Below are positions 1,177-58,162 of a stretch of DNA of 58,353 bases, one piece after another. Each line of letters starts with the position of its first letter. The first letter of the stretch is position 1. The notes beneath the pieces were generated by a model. The model saw nothing but the letters and a program-made list of their open reading frames with translations. It searched no databases and had not been told where the DNA came from. The DNA is from a virus, in IMG/VR virus record IMGVR_UViG_3300021364_001428, positions 1 to 58,353 of that record; one strand, written 5' to 3'. Position numbers and translations under genes: made by a program.

Positions 1177-1203
1177 GTAAGCTGATCGCTTGCATGGCAT
1201 GTG

Positions 1204-1274
1204 TCCCCCGACTAAGACTCGAACTCAGACTAGCTGGACCAAAACCAGATGTGCTACCATTACACCATCGGGGA
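1204..1274 (-). tRNA. tRNA-Gln (UUG)
   Basis: Cloverleaf on the minus strand: acceptor TCCCCGA/TCGGGGG, T-arm with loop TTCGAGT, anticodon loop TTTTGGT giving UUG. The outermost anticodon-stem pair is mismatched. Last tRNA of the leftward-read cluster. Confidence 0.9.
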
Positions 1275-1288
1275 ATGTGATTTATTTA

Positions 1289-1522
1289 TCACTGAACAAA
1301 TGTTACTTCGTTAATTTGAACAGAGACATTTTCAATCTCTTCATCTGTTGTCTGATCAAATGCAACCGACGACCAAGTCATTCCTGTACCAGGTGCACTG
1401 AATCGAATATAAAATTGATCAAATTCAACAAAGCCTTCCATTGGATGACCATACTGATTAGTAAATTCCGTAGTGGTCGCATAACCATCTTCGAGCTGAT
1501 AATTAACTTTAGTAACGTACAT
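1289..1522 (-). CDS. hypothetical protein (77 aa)
   Basis: A small open frame between tRNA-Gln and tRNA-His. The protein (starts MYVTKVNYQLEDGY) is rich in beta-forming residues and acidic near its C-terminus, with no signal peptide or membrane segment. No family recognised. The A/T-rich sequence just upstream of the start matches the leaders of other genes here. It is likely read with the tRNA cluster. The antisense frame covering the same bases runs into the tRNA gene and is not credible. Confidence 0.6.
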   Translation of the reverse strand: MYVTKVNYQLEDGYATTTEFTNQYGHPMEGFVEFDQFYIRFSAPGTGMTWSSVAFDQTTDEEIENVSVQINEVTFVQ

Positions 1523-1575
1523 TTTGTTTTGTTTTACAGTACTTATATTTAACTAACTTGATTTGTTTCTATTTG

Positions 1576-1651
1576 GGGTGGCTAATCGGGTTCGAACCGA
1601 CGACCTCCGGAACCACAATCCAGCGCTCTAACCAACTGAGCTATAGCCACC
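1576..1651 (-). tRNA. tRNA-His (GUG)
   Basis: Acceptor GGTGGCT/AGCCACC, T-loop TTCGAAC, anticodon loop TTGTGGT giving GUG, discriminator C as usual for His. The genomic base before position 1 does not encode G-1. Confidence 0.93.
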
Positions 1652-1656
1652 ATATA

Positions 1657-1845
1657 TTATCCAAGAATGTACCAAGGAGGGATTTGACTCTTACGTTTAG
1701 GCAATCGTTTAAAAATCCTTACTTCTGGATATTTAATACCGTTAGGCGTTTCAATATCATATGATTTACTATTATTCTTTTTGATAACTGTGCCGTTTTC
1801 AAGGACTCCAAAAAGATAGAATTGTACTTTATCTCCTACTTTCAT
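1657..1845 (-). CDS. small hypothetical protein, SH3/KOW-like beta fold possible (62 aa)
   Basis: Translation begins MKVGDKVQFYLFGVLENGTV, a pattern of short strands with GDKV and GTV turns typical of small SH3-like barrels. The ATGA overlap with the end of the preceding 56-residue ORF supports translational coupling and hence both genes. Function unknown. Confidence 0.55.
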   Translation of the reverse strand: MKVGDKVQFYLFGVLENGTVIKKNNSKSYDIETPNGIKYPEVRIFKRLPKRKSQIPPWYILG

Positions 1846-2012
1846 GATTCGAGGGCGTCTTTAGGTGCTTCGAAAGCTGTTTTAGGCCTCCCATCTTTAT
1901 TATACGCTATACAGTATTCACAACTTTCTTGATCCTCGCAAAATCCTATTTTATCTTGCCATTCGCCAGTCAAGTCATCATAATAAGCGTCATATTTATA
2001 AGAATAACCCAT
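1842..2012 (-). CDS. small hypothetical protein, four Cys-acidic (56 aa)
   Basis: Start chosen at 2012 (MGYSYKYDAYYDD...), because the longer frame would begin inside the tRNA-Tyr gene. Contains a GFCEDQESCEYCIAYNKDG stretch with three closely spaced Cys. The stop overlaps the next start by four bases (ATGA), a sign of coupling. No family recognised. Confidence 0.55.
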   Translation of the reverse strand: MGYSYKYDAYYDDLTGEWQDKIGFCEDQESCEYCIAYNKDGRPKTAFEAPKDALES

Positions 2013-2026
2013 TGTTTTAAATTTAG

Positions 2027-2108
2027 TGGGGGTAGATGGACTCGAACCACCGATGTCAAAAGACGGCTGATTTACAGTCAGCTGCAATAGCCACTATGCG
2101 ATACCCCC
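2027..2108 (-). tRNA. tRNA-Tyr (GUA)
   Basis: Class II tRNA with long variable arm; acceptor GGGGGTA/TACCCCC, anticodon stem GCTGA/TCAGC with loop CTGTAAA giving GUA, T-loop TTCGAGT. Confidence 0.93.
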
Positions 2109-2119
2109 ATTTTAGTTTG

Positions 2120-2192
2120 TCGGAATAGCAGGACTTGAACCTGCGGCCCCCTGCTCCCAAAGCAGGTGCGCTACCAACTGCGCCATATTCCG
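2120..2192 (-). tRNA. tRNA-Pro (UGG)
   Basis: Acceptor CGGAATA/TATTCCG, anticodon stem CCTGC/GCAGG with loop TTTGGGA giving UGG, T-loop TTCAAGT. Confidence 0.93.
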
Positions 2193-2227
2193 AAAAGTGA
2201 GGTGATGTCTGTTCCCCTCTCTGACCT

Positions 2228-2313
2228 TAAGCCAGCTGGGAATCGAACCCAAAGACATCGACTACTAAAACGCTGCCACGTTTGTTTGTCTTTTACCTCT
2301 TTCTCTCTGGCAG
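2228..2313 (-). ncRNA. degenerate tRNA-like RNA in tRNA spacer
   Basis: On the minus strand a clear T-arm (stem TTGGG/CCCAG, loop TTCGATT, 2236-2252) is followed by CTGGCTT and A, placed like an acceptor 3' strand and discriminator. The 5' partner CTGCCAG pairs at five of seven positions. D-arm and anticodon arm are not convincing. A competing 7-bp pairing (GATGTCT 2204-2210 with AGACATC 2253-2259) exists. Either a decayed tRNA or a stable RNA like the non-tRNA species in T4's tRNA cluster. Confidence 0.4.
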
Positions 2314-2325
2314 GAGAGAAATTGG

Positions 2326-2399
2326 CGTCCCCTCTAGGGCTTGAACCTAGGACCCTCTGATTAACAGTCAGATGCTCTAACCAACTGAGCTAAGGAGAC
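2326..2399 (-). tRNA. tRNA-Asn (GUU)
   Basis: Acceptor GTCTCCT/AGGGGAC, anticodon stem TCTGA/TCAGA with loop CTGTTAA giving GUU, T-loop TTCAAGC, discriminator G. Confidence 0.93.
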
Positions 2400-2401
2400 A
2401 A

Positions 2402-2498
2402 TATAAGAAGCTTCGGGTCTTTCGGGGTTCCTGGTTTGCTGGCCTTACTACGAACCCTTTTTCTTGGTGCCAACCTAACAGCTTCACTACTTCTTATA
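2402..2498 (-). ncRNA. structured spacer RNA between tRNA-Asn and tRNA-Thr
   Basis: A 97-nt spacer closed by a perfect 9-bp stem (2402-2410 with 2490-2498). Inside, GGGTTC (2425-2430) pairs with GAACCC (2452-2457). It has no start codon frame of note and no canonical tRNA arms. Likely a structured RNA released with the tRNAs; identity unknown. Confidence 0.4.
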
Positions 2499-2500
2499 AG

Positions 2501-2574
2501 AGCCGCTAGAGGGATTCGAACCCCCGACCCGCTGATTACAAATCAGCTGCTCTGGCCAACTGAGCTATAGCGGC
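2501..2574 (-). tRNA. tRNA-Thr (UGU)
   Basis: Acceptor GCCGCTA/TAGCGGC, anticodon stem GCTGA/TCAGC with loop TTTGTAA giving UGU, T-loop TTCGAAT, discriminator T. Confidence 0.93.
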
Positions 2575-2615
2575 AACATTTCTTATATACTTCGATCTTA
2601 ATCTGTTTCGATGCC

Positions 2616-2669
2616 GGGGCCCGAAAGCGGTGCTCGTGCTTCCGGACCCCTGCGTTCGCCTCACACGCA
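2616..2669 (-). ncRNA. strong GC-rich hairpins in tRNA spacer
   Basis: A 13-bp stem (2616-2628 with 2638-2650) encloses a 9-nt loop. Two of its pairs are G-U in the minus-strand RNA but A-C mismatches in a plus-strand RNA, so the structure fits a minus transcript only. A second stem (2651-2655 with 2665-2669) follows. GC content is far above the surrounding genome. Role unknown; it may be a processing signal or a stable RNA. Confidence 0.5.
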
Positions 2670-2670
2670 G

Positions 2671-2743
2671 TAGCCCCTCTGGGGTTCGAACCCAGGACCC
2701 ATACATTAAAAGTGTATTGCTCTACCAGCTGAGCTAAGAGACC
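2671..2743 (-). tRNA. tRNA-Lys (UUU)
   Basis: Acceptor GGTCTCT/AGGGGCT with several G-U pairs, anticodon stem ATACA/TGTAT with loop CTTTTAA giving UUU, T-loop TTCGAAC. Confidence 0.9.
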
Positions 2744-2748
2744 ATGTC

Positions 2749-2940
2749 GAGATAAGCTGCGCCTGACCGGCTCAGATCAACAGTATACACGCTTACTTAT
2801 CTCTACCTTGATGGTTATACTCCACAAGGCGTCGGAGCTGACTATAGTTAAATATACTATGGAGAATAATTTATAGTCATCACTATTCTTTGCAACCTCA
2901 GTTTAAATATAATAACAAGACTTATGAGGTATCATCTTGA
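2749..2940 (-). ncRNA. spacer with several long-stem hairpins
   Basis: No ORF. Perfect inverted repeats follow one another: 8 bp (2749-2756 with 2796-2803), 5 bp (2806-2810 with 2825-2829), 8 bp (2839-2846 with 2872-2879) and 6 bp (2895-2900 with 2935-2940). It lies between tRNA-Lys and the next RNA elements in the same transcript. Whether this is one folded RNA or several is not decided. Confidence 0.35.
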
Positions 2941-2959
2941 TTTGTTAGCTTTTACTCCA

Positions 2960-3031
2960 CTTAGACTCCGTCTTTCGACTTGTAGGCGTGAGATTTGACG
3001 CCTCGTTGTTCGGCTGTTAAGCCTATCTAAG
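2960..3031 (-). ncRNA. 72-nt cloverleaf-like RNA, not a canonical tRNA
   Basis: A closing stem of 6 bp (2960-2965 with 3026-3031) encloses three hairpins: GGCT/AGCC with a 4-nt loop (3012-3023), AGGCGT/ACGCCT with an 8-nt loop (2984-3003), and GTC-GAAA-GAC (2970-2979). The size and four-way layout recall a tRNA, but the loops are wrong for D, anticodon and T arms. It abuts the 138-nt tRNA-like gene, three bases after that gene's 3' end. Confidence 0.4.
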
Positions 3032-3034
3032 AGC

Positions 3035-3172
3035 TGGGGAGTGGGGGATTTGAACCCCCACTTCTTCCACACCGGATTTACTTACGCAATGCTAGCTAAC
3101 GCTTTCAATCTTTGTATTTGTGATACTGTCACAAATAGGCGAGAGCGTCATATCCAATTTGACTAACTCCCC
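3035..3172 (-). tRNA. anomalous 138-nt tRNA-like gene with about 62 extra bases
   Basis: On the minus strand the acceptor is perfect (GGGGAGT/ACTCCCC), the D-arm is good (GTCA/TGAC, loop AATTGGATA) and the T-arm is perfect (GGGGG/CCCCC, loop TTCAAAT), followed by discriminator A. Between D-arm and T-arm there are about 86 bases rather than the usual 22-40. They contain a 9-bp hairpin (TATTTGTGA/TCACAAATA) and no obvious anticodon arm. CTCTC follows the D-arm where the anticodon stem should start, but no GAGAG is present downstream. It may be a tRNA with a short insertion, a tRNA-derived structural RNA, or a pseudogene. Isotype cannot be given. Confidence 0.55.
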
Positions 3173-3181
3173 GTATTTTGG

Positions 3182-3255
3182 TAGGGACGACAGGAATTGA
3201 ACCTGTGACCTTGACTGTATAAGAGTCCTGCTCTAACCAACTGAGCTACGCCCCC
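3182..3255 (-). tRNA. tRNA-Ile (UAU)
   Basis: Acceptor GGGGGCG/CGTCCCT with G-U pairs, T-loop TTCAATT, anticodon loop CTTATAC giving UAU. The outer anticodon-stem pair is mismatched. It would read AUA, a codon common in A/T-rich genes. Confidence 0.88.
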
Positions 3256-4630: not shown

Positions 4631-6574
4631 TTATTGTACATCGTAAACACAACGTACTGACATGCCATGACCCTTAGACTTACTTGTTTGCCAAAGATCA
4701 TTATATCTAGCAATGCCATTTTTTGTATCTAAAATTGCTCTTGACCAAGCACTTTCTCTGCGATTTCTTTTTAGCGAGAAATGTGAGTCAGAGGTCCAAT
4801 ATGTTGCTATTAAATCTTGACCATAATATATGCCATCAATGTCTTTGATAACACCAGCATAAACCGGGTCAAATTCACTTGCAAATATTTGAGTATGCAT
4901 ATCTTGTGATTCTCCTCTATTTCCAACTGCGTTTAATTCAGCTGCATTAAGACCCAATTCATCTTCAAGGTTTTTCCAATCTTGATCGCTAGGAACTCTC
5001 CATCCAATTGGACAAACACTTTCATTAATAGCATACCAATTATATAAGAAACCTAAAGTGTCAGTAGCCTGTAAGGGGTTATAATACGCACCTGTTTCAT
5101 CTTCACTCCATTCAGAGCCTTGTCCTAATTCATTAATATTTACGCCTGATGTGTATCTTGTAGTTCTTAGGTTTTCAGTAAACCAACAAGTCGAACCAAA
5201 TAAAGCCAAATCATATTCATAGCCGTGATAATTTTCGCTAACGCAATCTTCTTGGTTATCACACACTCCGTTATTATTTAGATCTTCTACGCAATCACCA
5301 CCACAAACACCAATGGCATCGACCTGGTTTCCATTGCAATCGCAGTCGCCTACCGGGATGTTAGCACAACCACATTCGTAGATCTCACCTGGACCGTTGC
5401 AGACGCCGCATACATCATAAGCACCAACACAGTCGTCGACGTCGTCGCAAATACCATCGCTATCACTATCAAACTGACATGTTCCGTTACAAACGCCTAA
5501 AGCGTCATAACTACCTATACAATCATCAACGTCATCACAAACTCCGTCACTATCAGCATCTACTTGACAAGAACCTCCACAAACACCTATTGCATCATTA
5601 TAGAGACAAGAACCGTCGTCAGCGGTTGCCGAAGAATTATAATTACATGCATTAGAGTCTGTACATCCGTTTGCTGATCCATATAGATTTGCTCCGTTTT
5701 GAATCATATCTAATCTTACAACATCAGCCCAATCATGCATAGCCTCAATTTGGCCGTCTGTGAACTTTAACATATTACAAGATTGAGCATACGACATAAA
5801 GTTTCTAGGGTCATCTCCAATACTATAACACGCTGAAGCCCCACACGAAAAGATAGTAGGAGCTGGTTGAGTATCACAAACTAAATCACCTTGAGTTGTA
5901 CAATCAGTTTCGGTCGCAGCATCGTTACAATCTAAATAATCAGAGTAAGGTCCTCTAGGCCCCTGAGATATTTGCTTATGAAAAGTGTGAAATAGGCCCA
6001 TAAAATGACCTATTTCATGAATATTAGTTTTTCCGCTTGAGCTTTGGAATGTACCTGGTCTAACAAAATAACCCCTATTAGTATAAGCGCTTCTCCATGT
6101 AAATCCAGCAACACTGCCCGCCCATTCTAGCACAAATATATTGAGATAATAATCAAGCTGATATCCAAAGGTATTAGCTATAGAATAACTACTATCTACA
6201 ACTTGTTCATAATCTTGATTTCCAAAAACATCAAGGTTGTAGTCATCTAAATTTATGGATCTATAGCCGTTAAATGTCGAGTTGGTAAATTGATCAGTAA
6301 ATGTATTTCCATTAATATCTCTATCTGCTAAAATAAATGTCATTTGAGCATCAGATTGTTGAGGGTCTACACCATTATTCCAACCCTGTAAAAAACCATC
6401 ATTCATAACCGATATAGCATTGGTTACTTGTTGGTACGATAAATGATCCCCGTAACCCGAAGCCTGATCTCCATCGTGTAGAACAGTAACGACAACTGGA
6501 ACTATTTTATCGGTTGGTTGAGCCAATGCACCTAGAGATACCAACGTTGCTAGTAAAAGTGTATAAAATTTCAT
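4631..6574 (-). CDS. exported pappalysin-like (M43) metallopeptidase with Ca-binding/Cys-rich repeats and FISUMP domain
   Basis: 647 residues. An N-terminal signal peptide (hydrophobic to about residue 18, ending GALAQ) predicts Sec export. The M43 metzincin domain spans about 25-290, with an intact zinc motif [11 protein letters not shown] (186-196) and a Met-turn NFMSY (258-262). Residues 304-445 are Cys-rich, with [14 protein letters not shown]-type units like thrombospondin type 3 repeats and VCGG units. Residues 450-645 form a FISUMP domain ([33 protein letters not shown]). Such proteins are common in free-living Bacteroidota but strange in a T4-like phage. No T9SS sorting tail is seen. 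It may loosen the host surface at lysis or act on the virion-host contact; this is inference. Confidence 0.85.
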
Positions 6575-13151: not shown

Positions 13152-13179
13152 GTATAATTAATGTAGTTAAATTATGTGG

Positions 13180-13264
13180 CGGAGAGGGAGGGATTCGAAC
13201 CCCCGGTACCGTGAGGTACGCCGGTTTTCAAGACCGGTGCATTCGACCACTCTGCCACCTCTCC
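13180..13264 (-). tRNA. tRNA-Ser (UGA)
   Basis: Class II tRNA; acceptor GGAGAGG/CCTCTCC, anticodon stem CCGGT/ACCGG with loop CTTGAAA giving UGA, long variable arm, T-loop TTCGAAT, discriminator G. The next three bases read CCA, so the 3' CCA may be encoded (to 13177). Confidence 0.95.
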
Positions 13265-13266
13265 GT

Positions 13267-13509
13267 TTAACTATTTATCTTATAAACTACTGATTTACTT
13301 AAAATGTCTCGTGAATATTCTTTGTAAATTCTTTTTGATACTTTTTCTGCAACCGATTTAGCATATTCTAGGTCCCTAAATACTTTCGGGTGTTCTTCCA
13401 TATACATGCGTATTCCTAAGAAATAATGTTTTTCAACTATCTTATACACACATAAATCCTCCTCTAGCCTGTACTCAACTATTTCTACTTTGTACGAAGT
13501 GGCTTTCAT
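13267..13509 (-). CDS. hypothetical protein (80 aa)
   Basis: Start taken at 13509 ([20 protein letters not shown]) because the longer frame begins next to tRNA-Arg sequence. The protein alternates strands and a charged helix ([19 protein letters not shown]). It sits between tRNA-Arg and tRNA-Ser. No family recognised. Confidence 0.6.
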
Positions 13510-13527
13510 CTTAATTTTATTTTTTAG

Positions 13528-13601
<74 letters not shown>

Positions 13602-13615
13602 ATATTATAATTTAG

Positions 13616-13695
13616 TACGGGCGGAGAGACTCGAACTCTCACTCCTAGGAACTAGTGCCTAAAACTAGCGCGTCTACCAATTCCGCCACGCCCGC
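13616..13695 (-). tRNA. tRNA-Leu (UAG)
   Basis: Class II tRNA; acceptor GCGGGCG/CGCCCGT, anticodon stem CTAGT/ACTAG with loop TTTAGGC giving UAG, T-loop TTCGAGT. Confidence 0.93.
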
Positions 13696-13754: not shown

Positions 13755-16700
13755 TTAAGCTAATTTAGATTGAGCCACTGGATCAAGGTCTGTAATAGTA
13801 ATCTTAGCTTGACCCGATACCAACAGATCGACAAGTTCTTGCATTGCAGCTGCACCTTCGTTAAACCCAGAAGAAGAACCCGCGTTACCGGAAGAAATAC
13901 CAAGTTTACTAGAAAGGCCATCTATTACTTTAGCCATAGCTTCACTAGTATTTTTACTACCTTCGGCTTGTTCGCTAACAGTACCTTCAAAATCTGCTAT
14001 CATTCTTGCTAACTCTTTAATAGCTTCTGTTAATTTTTCGCCAAGTTCTTCCATTGCATTTCTTCTACCGTTTTGATATAAATATGCTAACGCTTTGAAC
14101 ATGTCGGTTGTAGCGTTAATAGCTTCAACGTCCATTGTATTGCTTGAATTAGAAATATCAGCGTATGACTTAGCTATTTTTTCTAATGCTGACGCCTGAG
14201 AATCAAATGAAGATCTAGCTAATTGTCTAGCCATTTTATGAGCCCATTCTATACCATCTATATTAACTCCTCCCATTTTATCTAATGCAGATGCTATATT
14301 TGTCATAGGTCTTGACATTGCCACAATAGATTTACTACTAGAAGCCATAACTTCAAACATTCTAATAAATGCATCAGATCTCATTAATACCATATTTGTT
14401 GATATACTGCTAATTGCAGGCGCAATGCTAAGTAGCATAGCTTCTCCTTGTTTAGTTAAGTCTGATTGAGATAGTGAGTCAAAGACGGCTGCTATTTCTT
14501 TTAAAATTTCTACAGAAATAGCTGACATTAAAACTAAAGCATCGGCAGACATTTTCATACCTACGCCCAATTTATCAGCATTTATAGACATTTTATATAT
14601 AGATGTAGATATAGAACCAATAGGATCTACTAGAGGTGACCAGTTTACATCATTGAATAATTTTATAATCGCATCAATATATTCTTTCTTTAAAGAATTT
14701 AAAGAAGTAACCATTTTTTCCATGCCTGCCGCAACTTTAGTAACTCCATCTCCTGCTAAATTAGCGTTAAGCGCAAGTATAGACATAGAACTGGCAACAG
14801 AAGCCACTGGAGTAAAGATAGAGCTCCAAGAAACATTAGCAAACAAAGCTTCTAATTTCTTGGGAGCATCTGGATCCAGACCGCTAAGAGCGGAAACCAT
14901 ATCCCTTATAGGAGGAGCCATATCTTGAACCGCCTTTATATTAGATGCCTTTGGATCTAACTGCATAAGTTCAAAGAACCTATTTAAAACTTCCATATTT
15001 TGCCCGCCTTGTAAGAAAGAAAATGCATCCCCTAAGATTCTAATAGGCTTAGCTACTTTAGCTATTTCAGGAGCCATAGCTACTATATCTTGTAAAATAT
15101 CAATAGGCCCTTTTGATTTTTCTCCGCCGAATAAAGAAGCCACACCATCAAAAAATGCTTTACCCACATTAGCTATAGAAGAAAATAATCCACCAGCTGC
15201 AACGCCAGCAACCGCTCCTGCTAAAGCTAATAAAGAAACAGAAATTGCAATAATACCACCTGCTAAAGGCAAAAGATTATCGACACCTATTTCATTTTTT
15301 AATCTAGCCAAAATGTCAACTATACCATTAACAGGTGCTAAAAGCGCATCACTTAACATTTCAGCGGTGCTTGAAATATCTGGTAAACTAGCAAAAATGT
15401 TAGCTACAACCCAAATACCAGCTGCTATAATAATCATACCCACAGTTCCCAATAACATAACAGGTAGAGGAATAAGCCCTAAAATTCCTATAATTACTCC
15501 AAATAATCCTATAGCCAATGCAGAACCAAGAACCCAATCTATTGGTAAAGTTTCTCCAGCAGGAGGCAATATACTTAAAATCCAAGCAACTGCTAAAACG
15601 CCTACAGAAATAATAATAGCAGCCAATACTCCCATTGCCAATGTTTTCATTCCCACTGTCTTAGTTATAACACCCAATAAAGTCATACTAACACCGAATA
15701 CAATAAGCGCTAAACCTGTTTTTAAAGTCCAAATAGGATCTGGAGCAGGTCCATAGCCTCCGCCCATTTTAGCGTATATGTCAAATATGAATGCAGTGGC
15801 AATTATACCTAGTGCTATAAAACCAGCTGCGGCTGCAGCCATTCCCATATCTTTCCAAGTAAGACCTCTAACTGCTCTAGCTAAACCAGCAAAAGGTAAA
15901 GCAAAAACTAATAAAGCTAAACCTGACAGTAAAGACCATTTCCAATCAGGCGCATTAAAAGTATCTGGCAATTGCGTAAATATCCAAGCTGTAGCCCATA
16001 TAGATCCAGCAATAAATACTAATGCTGCAGCCGCCATAGCTACTTCTTGTAGTTTAGCGCCTTTAATAGAGTCTAAAACAAGTTTAAAACTATAAGCTGC
16101 GGCGACTAAAGACAAGCCTATTAGAAAAACAGTAGCATATACATATGGATCCTTAATTGGTACAACACCTTGTAAAATAAAGCTAGAAAGTACAATACCT
16201 GCTGCAATAAGAGGTATTGCGGCAGACGCAAGTAGAACATCCTTAAAGGATTTACCTTCTATTTTTTCTAGAACTTGAGCATATGCCCAAGCTGCTCCGG
16301 TTAAAGCGATACCCACTAAAAACGCTGTTATTAGTTTTTCTGCGCTAACTGGCATTATAAGCTGAAAAATTAAAGAAGCTATGACTATACCCACGGCCAA
16401 GCCAATAATAGAAAGCATAGTAGCCCCCATTAAATGCCATATACCATTAGTATTAACTGCCGAAATAGATCCTAATTCACCAGCATCTATAGTATCATTG
16501 CCTTTCATTTTACCTAAAGTCTCGGCTATTTTAACAAATGTCGGTGCCATTACTAATAATGCAGCGGCCATTAAAACGGCTGTCAATAATTGTATTGGAG
16601 ATACCGGCATAATTAACTGCATTATCCAAGAAGAAAATGTTAAAGCCGCTACCATCCCCAACATAGAAAGTAAAGCAGCTCCAGCTGAAGCAAATATAAA

Positions 16701-17213
16701 AGTTGGATCTGCTTTAGAAGCTTCTATGCCTTCATAAGATACGCTAGTTTCACCCTTTAATTTACCTAAAGTTTCTACTATTTTGATAAAACCCGGAGCT
16801 AATAAAGCCATAGTCGCACCAACTACCACCGCAGTTCCTAATTGTGCAAGAGACACTTTTGGTATTAAACTAAATAAACCAGCTGAAGCTACAAGGGCAG
16901 CAGATAAACTTACCATCATAAAAGCAGCTAATCCAGTGTCTTTTACACTAAGCGGTTTGAATCTAGCGGCTTGATCTAAATCGTCAGCTTGTTTACCGCC
17001 TTCACTATTACTCTTAACTTGATCCTTCATTATACTTTTAATATCTCCAAGAATAGTAGTTTGCTTTTTAAGTTCATCTACTGTTTCTTTTTGAAGAGAT
17101 TTGACGTCGACTGTTAACATTTCTATGCTAGTCATTTGCTGAGTTCTCTCCTCAGCCACTGCTTCTAGTCTGTAAATAGGGCTTAATATAGCCTGAAACT
17201 GCTTTTCTGTCAT
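13755..17213 (-). CDS. membrane-rich tail tape-measure candidate
   Basis: 1152 residues. The first 90 are helical and coiled-coil-like. About 90-690 hold a long series of Ala/Gly/Leu/Ile-rich hydrophobic segments arranged in repeating pairs separated by short Pro- or Gly-containing loops. The C-terminal 450 residues are amphipathic helices ending in a Gly/Ser linker. Position supports a tape measure: it lies directly downstream of a gp26-like protein with a probable frameshift extension, and near gp19 and gp18, as tape-measure genes usually do. T4's own tape measure (gp29) is about 590 residues, so this is nearly twice that. An alternative is another large tail-associated membrane protein. 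It has its own late-type box and follows a terminator. Confidence 0.55.
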   Translation of the reverse strand: MTEKQFQAILSPIYRLEAVAEERTQQMTSIEMLTVDVKSLQKETVDELKKQTTILGDIKSIMKDQVKSNSEGGKQADDLDQAARFKPLSVKDTGLAAFMMVSLSAALVASAGLFSLIPKVSLAQLGTAVVVGATMALLAPGFIKIVETLGKLKGETSVSYEGIEASKADPTFIFASAGAALLSMLGMVAALTFSSWIMQLIMPVSPIQLLTAVLMAAALLVMAPTFVKIAETLGKMKGNDTIDAGELGSISAVNTNGIWHLMGATMLSIIGLAVGIVIASLIFQLIMPVSAEKLITAFLVGIALTGAAWAYAQVLEKIEGKSFKDVLLASAAIPLIAAGIVLSSFILQGVVPIKDPYVYATVFLIGLSLVAAAYSFKLVLDSIKGAKLQEVAMAAAALVFIAGSIWATAWIFTQLPDTFNAPDWKWSLLSGLALLVFALPFAGLARAVRGLTWKDMGMAAAAAGFIALGIIATAFIFDIYAKMGGGYGPAPDPIWTLKTGLALIVFGVSMTLLGVITKTVGMKTLAMGVLAAIIISVGVLAVAWILSILPPAGETLPIDWVLGSALAIGLFGVIIGILGLIPLPVMLLGTVGMIIIAAGIWVVANIFASLPDISSTAEMLSDALLAPVNGIVDILARLKNEIGVDNLLPLAGGIIAISVSLLALAGAVAGVAAGGLFSSIANVGKAFFDGVASLFGGEKSKGPIDILQDIVAMAPEIAKVAKPIRILGDAFSFLQGGQNMEVLNRFFELMQLDPKASNIKAVQDMAPPIRDMVSALSGLDPDAPKKLEALFANVSWSSIFTPVASVASSMSILALNANLAGDGVTKVAAGMEKMVTSLNSLKKEYIDAIIKLFNDVNWSPLVDPIGSISTSIYKMSINADKLGVGMKMSADALVLMSAISVEILKEIAAVFDSLSQSDLTKQGEAMLLSIAPAISSISTNMVLMRSDAFIRMFEVMASSSKSIVAMSRPMTNIASALDKMGGVNIDGIEWAHKMARQLARSSFDSQASALEKIAKSYADISNSSNTMDVEAINATTDMFKALAYLYQNGRRNAMEELGEKLTEAIKELARMIADFEGTVSEQAEGSKNTSEAMAKVIDGLSSKLGISSGNAGSSSGFNEGAAAMQELVDLLVSGQAKITITDLDPVAQSKLA

Positions 17214-17261: not shown

Positions 17262-17289
17262 AAAAAGAAAGGGGCTTTAAGCCCCTTTC
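17262..17289 (-). terminator. rho-independent terminator after gp26/extension
   Basis: Perfect stem AAAGGGGCTT/AAGCCCCTTT on the minus strand followed by TTCTTTTTGG. It starts 3 nt after the stop of the frameshift extension and separates it from the tape-measure gene. Confidence 0.9.
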
Positions 17290-17291
17290 TC

Positions 17292-17507
17292 TTATAGTTT
17301 AGGAACCGATAAATTTGGTACCTTCATATTTGGAATTTTAGGCATACTTGTGTTATACGCCTCATTTTGTTTTTCATTTTGCTTATTCTCTTCCTTAAGA
17401 TGTTCGACTAAGTCTTTGACTAAATAATGGAATTCATAATACTCCAAGTTGTCAAGTTCTGAAGGTTGAATATGTAACTTAAGGTATAAATAAAACTTAG
17501 TTTTAAA
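17292..17507 (-). CDS. tail-chaperone extension, probably made by +1 frameshift from gp26-like gene
   Basis: An open frame in +1 relative to the gp26-like gene continues 71 codons past the shift site (FKTKFYLYLKLHIQPS, then YYEFHYLVKDLVEHLKEENK). The YYEF...KDL pattern resembles C-terminal tail-assembly chaperone segments and T4-like gp51-type proteins. It lacks an ATG, GTG or TTG near its own beginning: the only upstream Met codons lie deep inside the gp26 frame and give a meaningless N-terminus, and the next Met is 17 residues from the end. At 17503-17511 the gp26 frame ends CTT CTT TAA. Slipping the P-site Leu tRNA from CTT to TTT enters this frame, as in E. coli prfB (CTT TGA). The predicted fusion is about 392 residues. 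Confidence 0.6.
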   Translation of the reverse strand, partial: FKTKFYLYLKLHIQPSELDNLEYYEFHYLVKDLVEHLKEENKQNEKQNEAYNTSMPKIPNMKVPNLSVPKL

Positions 17508-17511
17508 GAAG
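17503..17511 (-). promoter_or_regulatory. putative +1 ribosomal frameshift site CTT-CTT-TAA
   Basis: The last two sense codons and stop of the gp26-like gene read CTT CTT TAA, followed by AAC. A +1 slip on CTT-T places the ribosome on TTT AAA ACT in the extension frame. TAA is a strong stop, and the motif parallels the prfB shift. No upstream Shine-Dalgarno-like stimulator is expected in this translation background. Confidence 0.5.
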
Positions 17512-18471
17512 TTCTCCAGAGAAATCTTGAATAATGAAAATAGATTTGATGCCGTCGCGAAAGTTAATCGGAACAGAGGCCTCCTCATCCTCCACGACAA
17601 CCTTCATTTCGGGTTGGATGCCGATTTTCATTTTTTCAGCTAATCTATATAATAGCGTATATTTTTTATTATCCCATCCATTCATATCTACTTCGATATC
17701 GAATATTTTCTTTTGATTAAAGTTTCTCCAATCTGTAGAAATAAATGGGATAATTTGAATAAGAGATTGATCAATATTAATTCCCTTCTCTTGTCTTTCT
17801 CTAATATATTTTGTAACCTCTTGCATAACGCCAATTGATGGAGGCTTCATAAAAATTTCGCCATATGACCTGGTTTGAATTACGAATCCCCTAGACGCCT
17901 CGTCGTAATACTTTTCAATATCACCAGGAATCTCAAAATATCTAAAGTAATCTCTCTTTATTTCAATGTCATGAGAGTTACCGCTAGGAGCTGTAAAATT
18001 AACCTTTAATGCATTTTCTGGTTCTGGAAAAGTTAAATCTCTAACTGATAAGATAATAAAAAATCTATCTTCTTCACAAATGTCTTTAAAAGAAACTCTT
18101 TTGCTAGAACATGATACGTTTGTACAAGATTGAACAATAGAATTTAATTTTTCATCTATATCAAGTAGATTATTCTCATCCATTGTTGAGAAATGTCTAA
18201 TTTCTGCAACCTTAGCTGATCTAATTTTTATTTCCATATCCTTTGGATAAAATCTTCCCCTTGAAGGTAAATCTTCCATATTTAGGTTATACCAACCTAA
18301 ATGAATATCAGAATGTGCTGCTTTTTCAGGTCCATAGCTATCCATATTTACAGAACCTAAACCCTGATTAGTTATAGTTTCTTCAATAACATCAGCTTCT
18401 TCAATTGCAGTAGCTTGTGCTTCTTTTTCCGCTAGTATTCTTTCTAGCTCTTTTTCGTTATTATCGCTCAT
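17503..18471 (-). CDS. 26: T4 gp26-like baseplate hub/assembly protein
   Basis: 322 residues. The N-terminal 60 are acidic and disordered; then follows a domain with LPSRGRFYPKDMEIKIRSA, a central ExRFFIILSVRDLTFPEP, and a C-terminal IIPFISTDWRNFNQKKIFDI. This order resembles the T4 baseplate protein family of gp26 (PF12322), which in T4 is about 208 residues. The shared position between gp19 and the tape measure, with a frameshifted extension, suggests it also serves as the tail-assembly chaperone found before tape-measure genes in most long-tailed phages. Starts 5 nt after the small RHH-like gene. Confidence 0.7.
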   Translation of the reverse strand: MSDNNEKELERILAEKEAQATAIEEADVIEETITNQGLGSVNMDSYGPEKAAHSDIHLGWYNLNMEDLPSRGRFYPKDMEIKIRSAKVAEIRHFSTMDENNLLDIDEKLNSIVQSCTNVSCSSKRVSFKDICEEDRFFIILSVRDLTFPEPENALKVNFTAPSGNSHDIEIKRDYFRYFEIPGDIEKYYDEASRGFVIQTRSYGEIFMKPPSIGVMQEVTKYIRERQEKGINIDQSLIQIIPFISTDWRNFNQKKIFDIEVDMNGWDNKKYTLLYRLAEKMKIGIQPEMKVVVEDEEASVPINFRDGIKSIFIIQDFSGELL

Positions 18472-18476
18472 TTCCT

Positions 18477-18704
18477 TTATTTTGATTTAAGGTTTTTAAT
18501 GTTTTCTCTAGTTATAGACATTTGTCGTGGAGTTCTTTGTTTAATCTCGCGCTGAATTAATTCTCTAATAAATGCGCTAACAGATATGGGTCTTGACTCA
18601 CTTTCAATTGCTTCATTTAATATGATTCTATTAACCAGATTTACCTCATCCTCGGTTAAGAGAACTTGTAATTTCTTTGTTAATTTATCTCGTTTATTCG
18701 ACAT
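18477..18704 (-). CDS. small ribbon-helix-helix-like protein (75 aa)
   Basis: A basic 75-residue protein. The segment KLQVLLTEDEVNLVNRIIL followed by ISVSAFIRELIQREIKQ resembles the strand-helix-helix of CopG/MetJ-type regulators, with a basic C-terminal tail. It sits in the tail gene operon ahead of gp26, where a regulator would be unusual. It might act on late gene expression or bind DNA in the virion. Function inferred only from fold resemblance. Confidence 0.55.
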   Translation of the reverse strand: MSNKRDKLTKKLQVLLTEDEVNLVNRIILNEAIESESRPISVSAFIRELIQREIKQRTPRQMSITRENIKNLKSK

Positions 18705-18787: not shown

Positions 18788-19348
18788 TTAGTTTAACTCT
18801 TCGCTAAAGACGTCAGCTCTCCAAGTTACTTCTAGAGTTTGAGCATCTGCTGAGCCATAATCTAAAGTACCTGTGAATCCAAGACCCGATGTCATAAAGC
18901 AATCTTCAAGAGTTACTTTTCTGTAAATATCACCCTTTCTGTCGAATTGAACGATAATTATAGTACCCGTGTAATCTCTCTTTAGACCCATTTCACCAGT
19001 ATCTGGGTTATATTGAGATCTGTACCATTGTCTTAACGTTTTGTAAACGTAAGCTTGGTTAGAATCATTTAAGTTTAATGAGAAGTTAACTGTAACATCA
19101 AGCGCAGTTCCATCTGGCATACCAGCATATGATCTGGTAGCAAACTTATACTTTTGCTCAATTGCTGCGACTTCTCTGTGAATACCTTCTAGTCCTGAAA
19201 TTGAATTAACATGCTGAAGTAACATATCAGTTCCTTCGACAACGTCCGGTGCAAGTATAGTAACCTCAAATAGGTTAGCTTGTACTGGCTCAAATTGTCT
19301 GCCTTTCTTACTAGTTTGGTCTTCTCTATAGTGTGGTAAACCTGCCAT
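18788..19348 (-). CDS. 19: tail tube protein (gp19)
   Basis: 186 residues, close to T4 gp19 (163). Contains QANLFEVTILAPDV near the N-terminus, KYKFATRSYAGMPDG in the middle, the YKTLRQWYRSQYNPDTG stretch, and a C-terminal GFTGTLDYGSADAQTLEVTWRADV. These are hallmarks of the phage T4 gp19-like tail tube family. It polymerises into the inner tube around which gp18 contracts. Own late-type box 23 nt upstream; terminator after the gene, giving an abundant monocistronic message. Confidence 0.92.
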   Translation of the reverse strand: MAGLPHYREDQTSKKGRQFEPVQANLFEVTILAPDVVEGTDMLLQHVNSISGLEGIHREVAAIEQKYKFATRSYAGMPDGTALDVTVNFSLNLNDSNQAYVYKTLRQWYRSQYNPDTGEMGLKRDYTGTIIIVQFDRKGDIYRKVTLEDCFMTSGLGFTGTLDYGSADAQTLEVTWRADVFSEELN

Positions 19349-51361: not shown

Positions 51362-52567
51362 TTAAAATAGCGCTGTTGCGTAAATTAGGTTAGTGTCCAA
51401 TTTTTGAAGACCAATAGCCTTAAGTACTCTATTAAGTGGATCAATCATGCACTTTTCAAATTGCACATCATAATCGACAGGTGGAGCAAACTCATAAGGA
51501 TAGTCACCTGGTAAATAAGAGAACATATCACTTAAGGCTGTATCTGCACAATGATAAATTTTTAGCTTTTCACCATTTCCAATTAAGCGATACTTATTCT
51601 TGTATTTCTTATTTTGATTAAGCAAGTAGTTGTAATAACCTGCAGCTTTTACGTTTGGTGGACACTTTAGGCCAAACTGAAGCTCTATTTGGTCATCAAC
51701 AATATACTTATCAATATTATTAGTTCTCTTATTGAATGAAATATCATCTACGTTACAAAGCTTAAATTGCTTTTTGGTTTCTTTCATGAATTGAACCAAT
51801 TCCTGTAGATCTTCTGGCGAAGGCTTATCTTGTTTCTTAAATAGAATCTTAAGTGCTTCAACCAACTTTTCACGAGCAAACTTAGGAGTTGACGATTGAA
51901 TAGTATCGAAACCGATCGTTTTGACCTTTTTAAGAGAAGGATGTCGATCTGTTGTTTCAAGCTTATCGTCCCATGCAATGTTTTGAATGTACTTCTTCTT
52001 GCTCATCCAAATGCCGTTATACGCAATTGTCTCTAGTTCAAATATAAGAAAGTTATCTGTATTTCTACTAGCAGCATATTTTTCCATACACTTGACAATA
52101 TAGTCTTTAATTCTAAAGGCATATATTTCAAGAATAAAAGTATCAATATCTAACTTTTCATCAAGCCATTCAATAGAATTATACATTTCTTCGAATTGTA
52201 CGTAACACGAATCAGTATCAATATAGATGACAGCCGGACGTTCTGGCCTGTATTTTACTTTTATGTTAAAGTGGTCATGAACTACAGTATCTTTGTAAAA
52301 GAATTCGTTGAAATACTTGTTAAGTATAGTTTCAGAATAAAGAATTGCATTTTGACCTTGTAAAGTAATGGATTCTGCGATATTAATATCAAAGAAGTGA
52401 AACCATTTATTACCAAATGCTCCGTAAATACTATTCAAAGAAAGTTTTACAGCCTGTTCATATGCTGTATATTTAGCAGCTAGCTGCTCATAATGTGCGA
52501 CGAGAGCTTTCCCCTCATCAGGAGAAAGCTCTTCAATCGCTTTTTCTTCTAGTAGTTCTACATTCAT
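51362..52567 (-). CDS. 43B: DNA polymerase, C-terminal part (gp43B)
   Basis: 401 residues carrying the second half of a family B polymerase. Motif B is KLSLNSIYGAFGN (41-53) and motif C is YIDTDS (115-120); thumb and C-terminal tail follow, ending IYATALF, a probable clamp-binding peptide. It begins MNVELLEEKAIEELSP, just before the second fingers helix. Together with gp43A (56735-58162) it totals 876 residues against 898 in T4. No intein-like ends are visible, so the halves must associate as two chains. Directly downstream of gp45. Confidence 0.92.
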   Translation of the reverse strand: MNVELLEEKAIEELSPDEGKALVAHYEQLAAKYTAYEQAVKLSLNSIYGAFGNKWFHFFDINIAESITLQGQNAILYSETILNKYFNEFFYKDTVVHDHFNIKVKYRPERPAVIYIDTDSCYVQFEEMYNSIEWLDEKLDIDTFILEIYAFRIKDYIVKCMEKYAASRNTDNFLIFELETIAYNGIWMSKKKYIQNIAWDDKLETTDRHPSLKKVKTIGFDTIQSSTPKFAREKLVEALKILFKKQDKPSPEDLQELVQFMKETKKQFKLCNVDDISFNKRTNNIDKYIVDDQIELQFGLKCPPNVKAAGYYNYLLNQNKKYKNKYRLIGNGEKLKIYHCADTALSDMFSYLPGDYPYEFAPPVDYDVQFEKCMIDPLNRVLKAIGLQKLDTNLIYATALF

Positions 52568-56734: not shown

Positions 56735-58162
56735 TTAGGCAGCTGACTCTCCGACTTTTTTCTCATTTAATTTTTTTTTCAGCTCTCTTGCCTTTTCATA
56801 ATAATCGTACGAAGTTTTCTTATATTGTTTACGTTGGGCATAAAGGTCGGAGAGAATCTTCTTCAAGATTGAGTCTTCTTTTTCATAAACAACTCCGTTT
56901 TCGCACACAATGACGCTTTCATCCTTTCGACGACTATTTATCTGTGTAGTAGGTATCATTTCGACATATGAGTCAGGCGAAATATTAAACTGTCTCATAA
57001 TAGAAGGATACAGCGACGCAAAGTCAAAGGCACTAACTCCGCTATAATAACCAGAAATAGGCTCTTTAACAAATGCACCAGCATACTTACCGTCTTTTTG
57101 ACTATCCTCTTTATCGTATTCAACACCAACTCGTTTATTTTGCGCAACCAATTTACGAGCAATCAAAGCTTCTGTCATAGCAACAGGCGATGCTGCTTTA
57201 TAAAGAGGCATTTTTGTAATAGTTGCAAGAGTCAACAAGACCTCCATGCTTTTTAGCTTCTCATCTATATAATAAACCAAAATAGAGTCAACCACGTTAT
57301 AGAAAACATACTTCTTAAAGTCATTTTCGTATAGATCTTGTAGACCACCTTGATACTTAATCTTCTTAACATTAAGAACTTGACCAGAAACATAATCAAG
57401 TGTATTCGATTCTTTGACTTTAACCGAGCGATCATACTTATCATATAATTGCATGTAGTCTAGAATACCCATATGAAGTGGTCGACTATCATTACGATCA
57501 AGTGAACCAGTGATAGCTACTTCAGTCAAATCGATCTGTAAGTGTTTACAGCGATTAACGATATATTGCCAGTCATAGTTGATGAAGTTCCAACCCGTCA
57601 TCATAGGGAACTTTGGCAAAAACTTATGCAAGAAGTTGTAAAGCATGTCATACTCGTTCTTGAACTTGTAATAGCTAAATTCCCAATCTTGATCGTAACC
57701 TTCGAAATGATCGTTAGTGTCCTTCTCAATAGAAGCTATCTGTTCAGACGAAAGATCATCTAGACCTAGTACAATAGCTTTTCTCTCAGGTGTGATTATA
57801 GAGAATGTGAGGATCCTAGATTTAGCTTCTTCTGGCTTTGGGAAACCATCGACAATCTCTGTCTCAATATCAACAAAATAAGTACGTGGCACGTTAAACT
57901 CAAAGATTTCTTCTCGATCCTTTTCAGGAAGATTATCCATAAAGTAAATCAATGAAAACTTATTATACGAGCGAGATCGATTCTTCTTAACCGGGCGGCC
58001 ATCCCAATTCAAAATTTCAGGATGCTTATAACGATCTTTTTCGTCGGTGACAACCCAATTTTCAAATTGAGAAATAGGATATCTCTTGAAATCAACTTTA
58101 CCTTCTCTATTATAGTAGCTTACGATAAGCTCATTTTCTCTTTGTTCAATGTCAAGCAGCAT
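56735..58162 (-). CDS. 43A: DNA polymerase, N-terminal part (gp43A)
   Basis: 475 residues carrying the N-terminal and 3'-5' exonuclease domains plus the start of the palm. Exo I YFVDIETE (D98, E100), Exo II NFINYDWQ (N192, D197), Exo III YNVVDSIL (Y288, D292), and polymerase motif A DFASLYPS (380-387). The chain ends inside the first fingers helix (ELKKKLNEKKVGESAA), with a normal stop and a terminator after it. Motifs B and C are coded 4.1 kb away at 51362-52567. The start overlaps the dUTPase stop (TAATG). Confidence 0.95.
   Translation of the reverse strand: MLLDIEQRENELIVSYYNREGKVDFKRYPISQFENWVVTDEKDRYKHPEILNWDGRPVKKNRSRSYNKFSLIYFMDNLPEKDREEIFEFNVPRTYFVDIETEIVDGFPKPEEAKSRILTFSIITPERKAIVLGLDDLSSEQIASIEKDTNDHFEGYDQDWEFSYYKFKNEYDMLYNFLHKFLPKFPMMTGWNFINYDWQYIVNRCKHLQIDLTEVAITGSLDRNDSRPLHMGILDYMQLYDKYDRSVKVKESNTLDYVSGQVLNVKKIKYQGGLQDLYENDFKKYVFYNVVDSILVYYIDEKLKSMEVLLTLATITKMPLYKAASPVAMTEALIARKLVAQNKRVGVEYDKEDSQKDGKYAGAFVKEPISGYYSGVSAFDFASLYPSIMRQFNISPDSYVEMIPTTQINSRRKDESVIVCENGVVYEKEDSILKKILSDLYAQRKQYKKTSYDYYEKARELKKKLNEKKVGESAA

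Follow-up and report, generated by a model that had tools for sequence, protein, structure and literature searches.

The tail-assembly chaperones G and GT of phage lambda share an N-terminus and come from one gene between those for the tail tube and the tape measure, the long form arising by a frameshift at the 3' end. T4 is listed as an exception to this conserved tail-chaperone frameshift (PMC5009743). Here we describe a gp26-like gene of a T4-type virus, on the minus strand of a 58,353-nucleotide (nt) stretch of DNA (IMG/VR record IMGVR_UViG_3300021364_001428, positions 1 to 58,353; hereafter the window), that appears to be organised like lambda G/GT and from which, judging by comparison with related sequences, two tail-assembly chaperones are probably made by a +1 shift at a UUU_C site. 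The locus differs from lambda in that its shift would be +1 and not −1, its proteins are of the T4 gp26/gp51 type, and its signal would include a hairpin 5' of the slip site in place of the −1 heptamer. The parts of the locus, in window coordinates, are as follows.

17503..18471, minus strand: gp26-like gene in the zero frame, 322 codons for 322 amino acids (aa), the predicted short chaperone form; an open reading frame (ORF) matching phrog_36717 (E=1.5e-27)
17573..17595, minus strand: RNA hairpin GUGGAGG[AUGAGGAGG]CCUCUGU, 10 nt before UUU; seen as excess folding across relatives
17580..17585, minus strand: AGGAGG, Shine-Dalgarno-like, in the hairpin loop and ending 17 nt before UUU; seen as codon bias
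17557..17562, minus strand: proposed slip site UUU_CGC (UUU at 17562-17560, UUU_C at 17562-17559); from conservation over 100 loci
17506..17559, minus strand: zero-frame tail RDGIKSIFIIQDFSGELL, overlapped by the +1 frame, the no-shift outcome; from the conservation pattern
17503..17511, minus strand: zero-frame end CTT CTT TAA (preceded by GAA), holding the stop and the slip site proposed earlier; last Leu codon TTA in 9 of 100 loci
17295..17558, minus strand: +1-frame extension, 88 codons, gp51-like (ATASNLFSLFKISLENFFKTKF...PKL); from a phrog_634 match and hhalign
17292..17294, minus strand: +1-frame stop TAA; read from the sequence

The predicted products are a short form of 322 aa and a fusion of 392 aa (304 + 88), which share their first 304 residues.

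Selection on the +1 frame

Comparison across relatives reveals a +1 frame under selection, no conserved start for it, constraint on UUU_C, excess folding upstream of that site and homology to gp26/gp51. A first set of 29 relatives with an intact 3' end and a wider set of 100 non-redundant relatives or loci were used, the latter underlying the counts out of 100 below. A previous, sequence-only reading of this DNA had described a gp26-like frame ending CTT CTT TAA with an open +1 frame beyond it, and had proposed a programmed +1 shift joining this gene to a start-less gp51-like segment just before the tape-measure candidate. The two frames are indeed arranged in this manner, the +1 frame running past CTT CTT TAA (translation FKTKFYLYLKLHIQPSELDNLEYYEFHYLVKDLVEHLKEENKQ...) to the TAA at 17294-17292, and both the joining shift and the placement, with the tail tube upstream and the tape-measure candidate downstream, gain support from the comparison. 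The description of the segment as a start-less frame of 70 codons holds in that no credible start was found, but the +1 frame is also open for about 30 codons 5' of CTT TAA, it contains an ATG (17588-17586) kept only within the window's own subclade, and the functional segment appears to comprise 88 codons. GAA CTT CTT TAA and a +1 frame of 66-75 codons are present in all 29 relatives of the first set, so the arrangement is not due to chance.

The zero-frame residues are conserved until about codon −12, and beyond this point substitutions track the +1 frame. Over the last 14 zero-frame codons the zero-frame amino acids are variable (I/L/V, F/I/L, S/A/T) and the +1 reading LFSLFKISLENFFK is little changed; the last seven residues of the zero-frame tail have a predicted local distance difference test (pLDDT) score below 50 in a structure model. 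At codons −10 to −1, first- and third-position changes stand at 73/23, against 2412/5896 in the remaining gene (parsimony changes on a tree built without the overlap region, in which zero-frame first positions are +1 third positions). This pattern argues that ribosomes are already translating the +1 frame when they arrive at CTT TAA. From Phe codon −19 to the zero-frame stop, none of the 100 loci has a +1 stop, whereas 54 carry one in the 12-codon stretch 5' of UUU. In 11 loci, no ATG, GTG or TTG occurs from the last +1 stop (at most 4 codons 5' of UUU) through at least 8 codons past the zero-frame stop. As in genes of the G/GT type, the overlap shows dual coding selection without a second start, and entry into the +1 frame is very probably by recoding.

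The UUU_C site and the hairpin before it

The shift is likely to take place on UUU_C. The proposed site is Phe codon −19 of the zero frame, counted from the stop, which is UUU in 95 of the 100 loci and is followed by C in every one. The next codon specifies Arg, Pro or Gln and is CGY in 50 loci and CCC in 38. Where it encodes Arg it is CGY in 50 of 50 cases, against 6-28% CGN in other Arg columns (AGA being the usual Arg codon), and where it encodes Pro it is CCC in 79%, against 0-28% in other Pro columns. Where +1 coding begins, the window has the PA-X-like combination of an in-frame UUU and CGN, as UUU_CGC. The codons for Asp −17 (GAC 98%) and Ile −15 (ATC 97%) are biased in a way that fits +1 reading directly after UUU. 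Among remoter relatives (PAU, pT24, PTm1, Lak, megaphages, MaF61 and MA9V-1), 10 of 11 carry UUU_C in frame, and their +1 frame continues open across it.

Most relatives have a hairpin 3-13 nt 5' of UUU, usually with AGGAGG in the loop. GAG accounts for 99% of codons in both Glu columns 5' of the site, and for 3-48% in the 28 other Glu columns; AGGAGG or GGAGG lies at exactly 17 nt from UUU in 73 of 100 loci, and GGAGG is fully inside the loop in 68. Across relatives, the 36 nt 5' of UUU fold with a mean z of −3.0 (codon-usage null of synonymous variants), −2.6 when the AGGAGG codons are held fixed and −1.35 when GC-matched, and 12 control windows gave z values of −0.9 to +0.3. The stem sequence varies by clade with its pairing kept (GCGGUGA/UCACCGU, GCAGUGA/UCACUGU, GGGGAC/GUUCCC, GGGGAGC/GCUCCCC, and also GAUCGAGG/CCUCGAUC and ACGAGGAU/GUCCUCGU). 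The same folding tests across relatives found no stimulatory structure 3' of the slip site. On 70S ribosomes, +1 shifting in reporter constructs is stimulated by upstream hairpins that adjoin the E site and mimic a Shine-Dalgarno duplex (PMC6321510). Since the anti-Shine-Dalgarno is occluded in Bacteroidia ribosomes (PMC8710568), the hairpin may substitute for Shine-Dalgarno pairing, and on balance we favour a stimulatory role for it.

From this comparison we infer a slip event and its efficiency, roles for the hairpin and its loop, and a chaperone function. Most ribosomes would stay in the zero frame and stop at TAA 17505, yielding the 322-aa gp26-like form. In other ribosomes, with tRNA-Phe on UUU (17562-17560) and a rare codon in the A site (CGC; CCC or CGU in relatives), the peptidyl-tRNA-Phe would move one base forward from UUU to UUC and then read GCG ACG GCA..., giving the 392-aa form with its gp51-like extension. 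The hairpin, usually holding AGGAGG in its loop, would fold again behind the ribosome, 3-13 nt 5' of UUU, and push it forward. The proportion of the two forms would serve the assembly of tail tube and tape measure, as for lambda gpG/gpGT.

Several observations weigh against this proposal. The substitution tests count parsimony changes as independent. There is little conservation in the first five +1 residues past UUU, and coding alone therefore brackets the site (codons −19 to about −15) rather than fixing it. One remote relative (LR756504) is without an in-frame UUU_C, the site is displaced in MA9V-1 and PTm1, and a clade of five among the 100 (L185, L189, L190, L192 and L193) has TTC_CCA, which is poor for slippage, and is also without AGGAGG. 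For the hairpin, RNAalifold returned a consensus stem of zero pairs across relatives, probably because the stem register differs between clades; the excess folding is modest once GC is matched; in the window itself, the 176-nt region folds no better than shuffles (z −0.31); and the 17 nt between AGGAGG and UUU are too long for rRNA pairing of the prfB type. On this spacing, action of AGGAGG as in prfB was rejected. The TTC_CCA clade keeps the +1 protein, perhaps through a GTG start or a CTT_TTC shift.

The sequence-only reading had placed the slip at the terminal CTT_TAA, where tRNA-Leu would move +1 from CUU to UUU, as in prfB, and give a 322 + 70-codon fusion. It is true that GAA CTT CTT TAA is found in 29 of 29 first relatives, that the final two Leu columns are CTT in 99% and 91%, against 23% of Leu codons overall, and that CUU_UGA occurs in prfB of most Bacteroidia (PMC8710568). 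However, +1 coding selection reaches upstream of CTT_TAA, and although CTT TAA and the overlap are kept throughout the first set, nine of the 100 sequences of the wider set end CTT TTA TAA with the +1 protein intact (NFYK instead of NFFK). Slippage of the CTT_TAA kind is not possible on TTA_TAA, so that CTT_TAA cannot be the general slip site. The CTT CTT TAA is conserved because the +1 frame codes N-F-F-K (AAC TTC TTT AAR) while the zero frame codes E-L-L-stop. A conserved CUU before the stop as point of +1 entry is therefore lacking, as is a Shine-Dalgarno about 3 nt before the P-site codon, since GGAG near CTT is not conserved and is absent from several relatives. Slippage at CTT_TAA is already largely refuted across the family, and we regard it as highly improbable.

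Under another reading, the extension would be a separate overlapping gene, initiated upstream in the +1 frame at ATG 17588 in the window and at TTG (codon −9) or GTG (−17) in others; we consider this very unlikely. Most loci do have an ATG, GTG or TTG somewhere in the open +1 frame, but its position is not conserved, 11 loci have none, and the window clade reads TTA at codon −9. Moreover, zero-frame third positions are free to vary upstream of UUU, indicating that no +1 protein is selected there. A shift at a different codon of the interval (CCC_G, for example, or CTT/ATT_TTC at codon −12), or one of another type, such as −2, also seems very unlikely. The clearest +1 selection does start near codon −10, and CTT_TTC is common and is present in all members of the TTC_CCA clade; yet the codon before TTC is CTG, CTA, CTC, TTA or ATT in many relatives, CCC is absent from the CGY clade, and the biases at Asp −17 and Ile −15 already fit the +1 reading. 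By inspection, −2 slippage was rejected, with no codon pair re-pairing across clades.

The two proteins and their genomic setting

A relative and a predicted fold place the zero-frame protein in the T4_baseplate (gp26) family. The relative (L033, about 44% identical to the window protein) exceeds the Pfam T4_baseplate (PF12322) cut-off of 24.5 bits with a score of 29.6, the window protein itself having no Pfam match, and the zero-frame structure model (pLDDT 78) has T4-like baseplate hub assembly proteins as its Foldseek matches. When profiles are compared, the match to gp26/gp51 is weak (hhalign 32%, E 4.8e-4), as is the direct profile match to the single T4 gp26 (hhalign 58%, E 1e-4), and with A1 alone and gp51 alone no direct match was found. 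The +1 extension is, by profile comparison, homologous to the C-terminal segment of T4 gp51. It matches phrog_634 (gp51) with E=1.4e-4 when read from UUU_C and with 0.26 when read from CTT TAA; starting at UUU_C thus gives the stronger independent signal of gp51 homology. Against the gp51 segment of cyanophages and KVP40 it gives an hhalign value of 95.5% (E=1.5e-8). An AlphaFold model of the C-terminal part of the fusion, made with no alignment, had a pLDDT of 36 and was discarded, and a fold search in the PDB gave no match. It is fairly likely that the short and long forms are tail chaperones like G and GT.

The surrounding features are the following.

18788..19348, minus strand: tail tube protein, upstream of the gp26-like gene; matches phrog_4542 and phrog_45 (tail tube)
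13755..17213, minus strand: tape-measure candidate, 1152 aa, downstream; from position and length only, with no convincing family match
17262..17288, minus strand: inverted repeat GGGGCTTAAAGCCCC with a T run just past the +1 stop, terminator-like; read by eye from the sequence

If it is a terminator, the +1 segment would close the transcription unit. The gene order on the minus strand is sheath, tail tube, a 75-aa ORF, gp26-like gene and 1152-aa tape-measure candidate, so that the gp26-like gene sits, as G/GT genes do, between tail tube and tape measure, the latter taken from position and length. The 75-aa ORF (18477-18704) looks like a ribbon-helix-helix protein by eye and has no Pfam match. 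The virus is of the T4 kind by its Gp23 major capsid protein (PF07068, E 1.7e-47), and portal, head protease, terminase, clamp loader and sheath genes are also present. Named phages with a related gene infect the Bacteroidota Prevotella, Tenacibaculum, Chryseobacterium and Flavobacterium, alongside Sphingomonas phage PAU and unassigned megaphages; the host of the window phage is probably a member of the Bacteroidota. Among the 11 tRNA genes elsewhere in the window (1203-3255 and 13177-13695) are those for Pro(UGG), Leu(UAG) and Arg(UCU), the last of which reads AGR, and none serves CGN arginine codons. Two separate ORFs (51362-52567 and 56735-58162), each matching DNA polymerase families and with a ribonucleotide reductase gene in between, are possibly a split DNA polymerase, and a 647-aa protein (4631-6574) combines an M43 peptidase domain with a C-terminal Fib_succ_major domain.

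Relation to other recoded genes

The same pair of proteins appears to be made by other routes elsewhere. P-SSM2, S-PM2, Syn9 and KVP40 encode gp51 in the −1 frame relative to gp26, and their gp26 has U_UUU_UUC one codon short of its stop (P-SSM2, L228:1703-1715; L230 and L231; KVP40, L229), the pair being annotated as two genes, and U_UUU_UUC also stands at the end of gp26 in 80 of 80 related contigs (L232-L311). This looks like an unreported −1 frameshift joining gp26 and gp51. In T4 the two genes lie on opposite strands (L204:4803-6229) and are paralogues (blastp 2e-6; both match phrog_150), of which gp51 only carries the extra C-terminal segment. Given the −1 site of cyanophages and KVP40 and the T4 paralogy, the simplest reading of these sequences is that the T4 superfamily has three solutions for one G/GT-like chaperone pair: a −1 shift, a +1 shift or gene duplication. 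The window locus resembles T4 (PF12322, phrog_150/phrog_634), cyanophages and KVP40 in having a homologous short protein and C-terminal extension, but would use a single gene rather than the T4 paralogues, and +1 at UUU_C rather than −1 at U_UUU_UUC. No report of a gp26/gp51 frameshift was found in the literature searched, subscription papers lying outside the search. It is appealing to propose that T4's status as an exception reflects its two paralogous genes, while its relatives appear to frameshift gp26-gp51 (−1 in cyanophages and KVP40, +1 here).

Among bacterial systems, prfB (RF2) is alike in its +1 slip on a U-rich P-site codon with AGGAGG upstream, but there AGGAGG is about 3 nt away, whereas here it is 17 nt away in a hairpin loop. 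SPP1 has a +1 shift of the CCC_UGA type. In Listeria phages, +1 slippage on a Pro codon that precedes a stop lengthens the major tail or capsid protein (PMC5009743), and with SPP1 and these phages the window locus shares +1 recoding in phage tail genes. The influenza A PA-X shift takes place at UUU_CGU, for which UUU to UUC has been argued to be perfect re-pairing for tRNA-Phe (PMC3498833), and the shift motif of plant amalgaviruses is UUU_CGN (PMC5052127). These are alike in the P-site move from UUU to UUC, the rare CGN in the A site and the +1 direction; they differ in using eukaryotic ribosomes at about 1% efficiency, whereas here a bacterial virus would use a second form, UUU_CCC, as well, and an upstream hairpin. 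The PA-X paper left open a wider use of UUU_C-type shifts, in cellular genes (PMC3498833). We see an even chance that UUU_C with a rare CCC or CGY codon, driven by an upstream hairpin with AGGAGG in its loop, forms a new class of bacterial +1 signal, suited to Bacteroidota ribosomes with their occluded anti-Shine-Dalgarno (PMC8710568) and taking the place, for one chaperone pair, of the cyanophage −1 heptamer and the T4 gene duplication. If true, bacterial ribosomes would, in these phages, provide a large natural set of UUU_C shifts whose upstream hairpins resemble those that stimulate +1 shifts in reporter constructs (PMC6321510).
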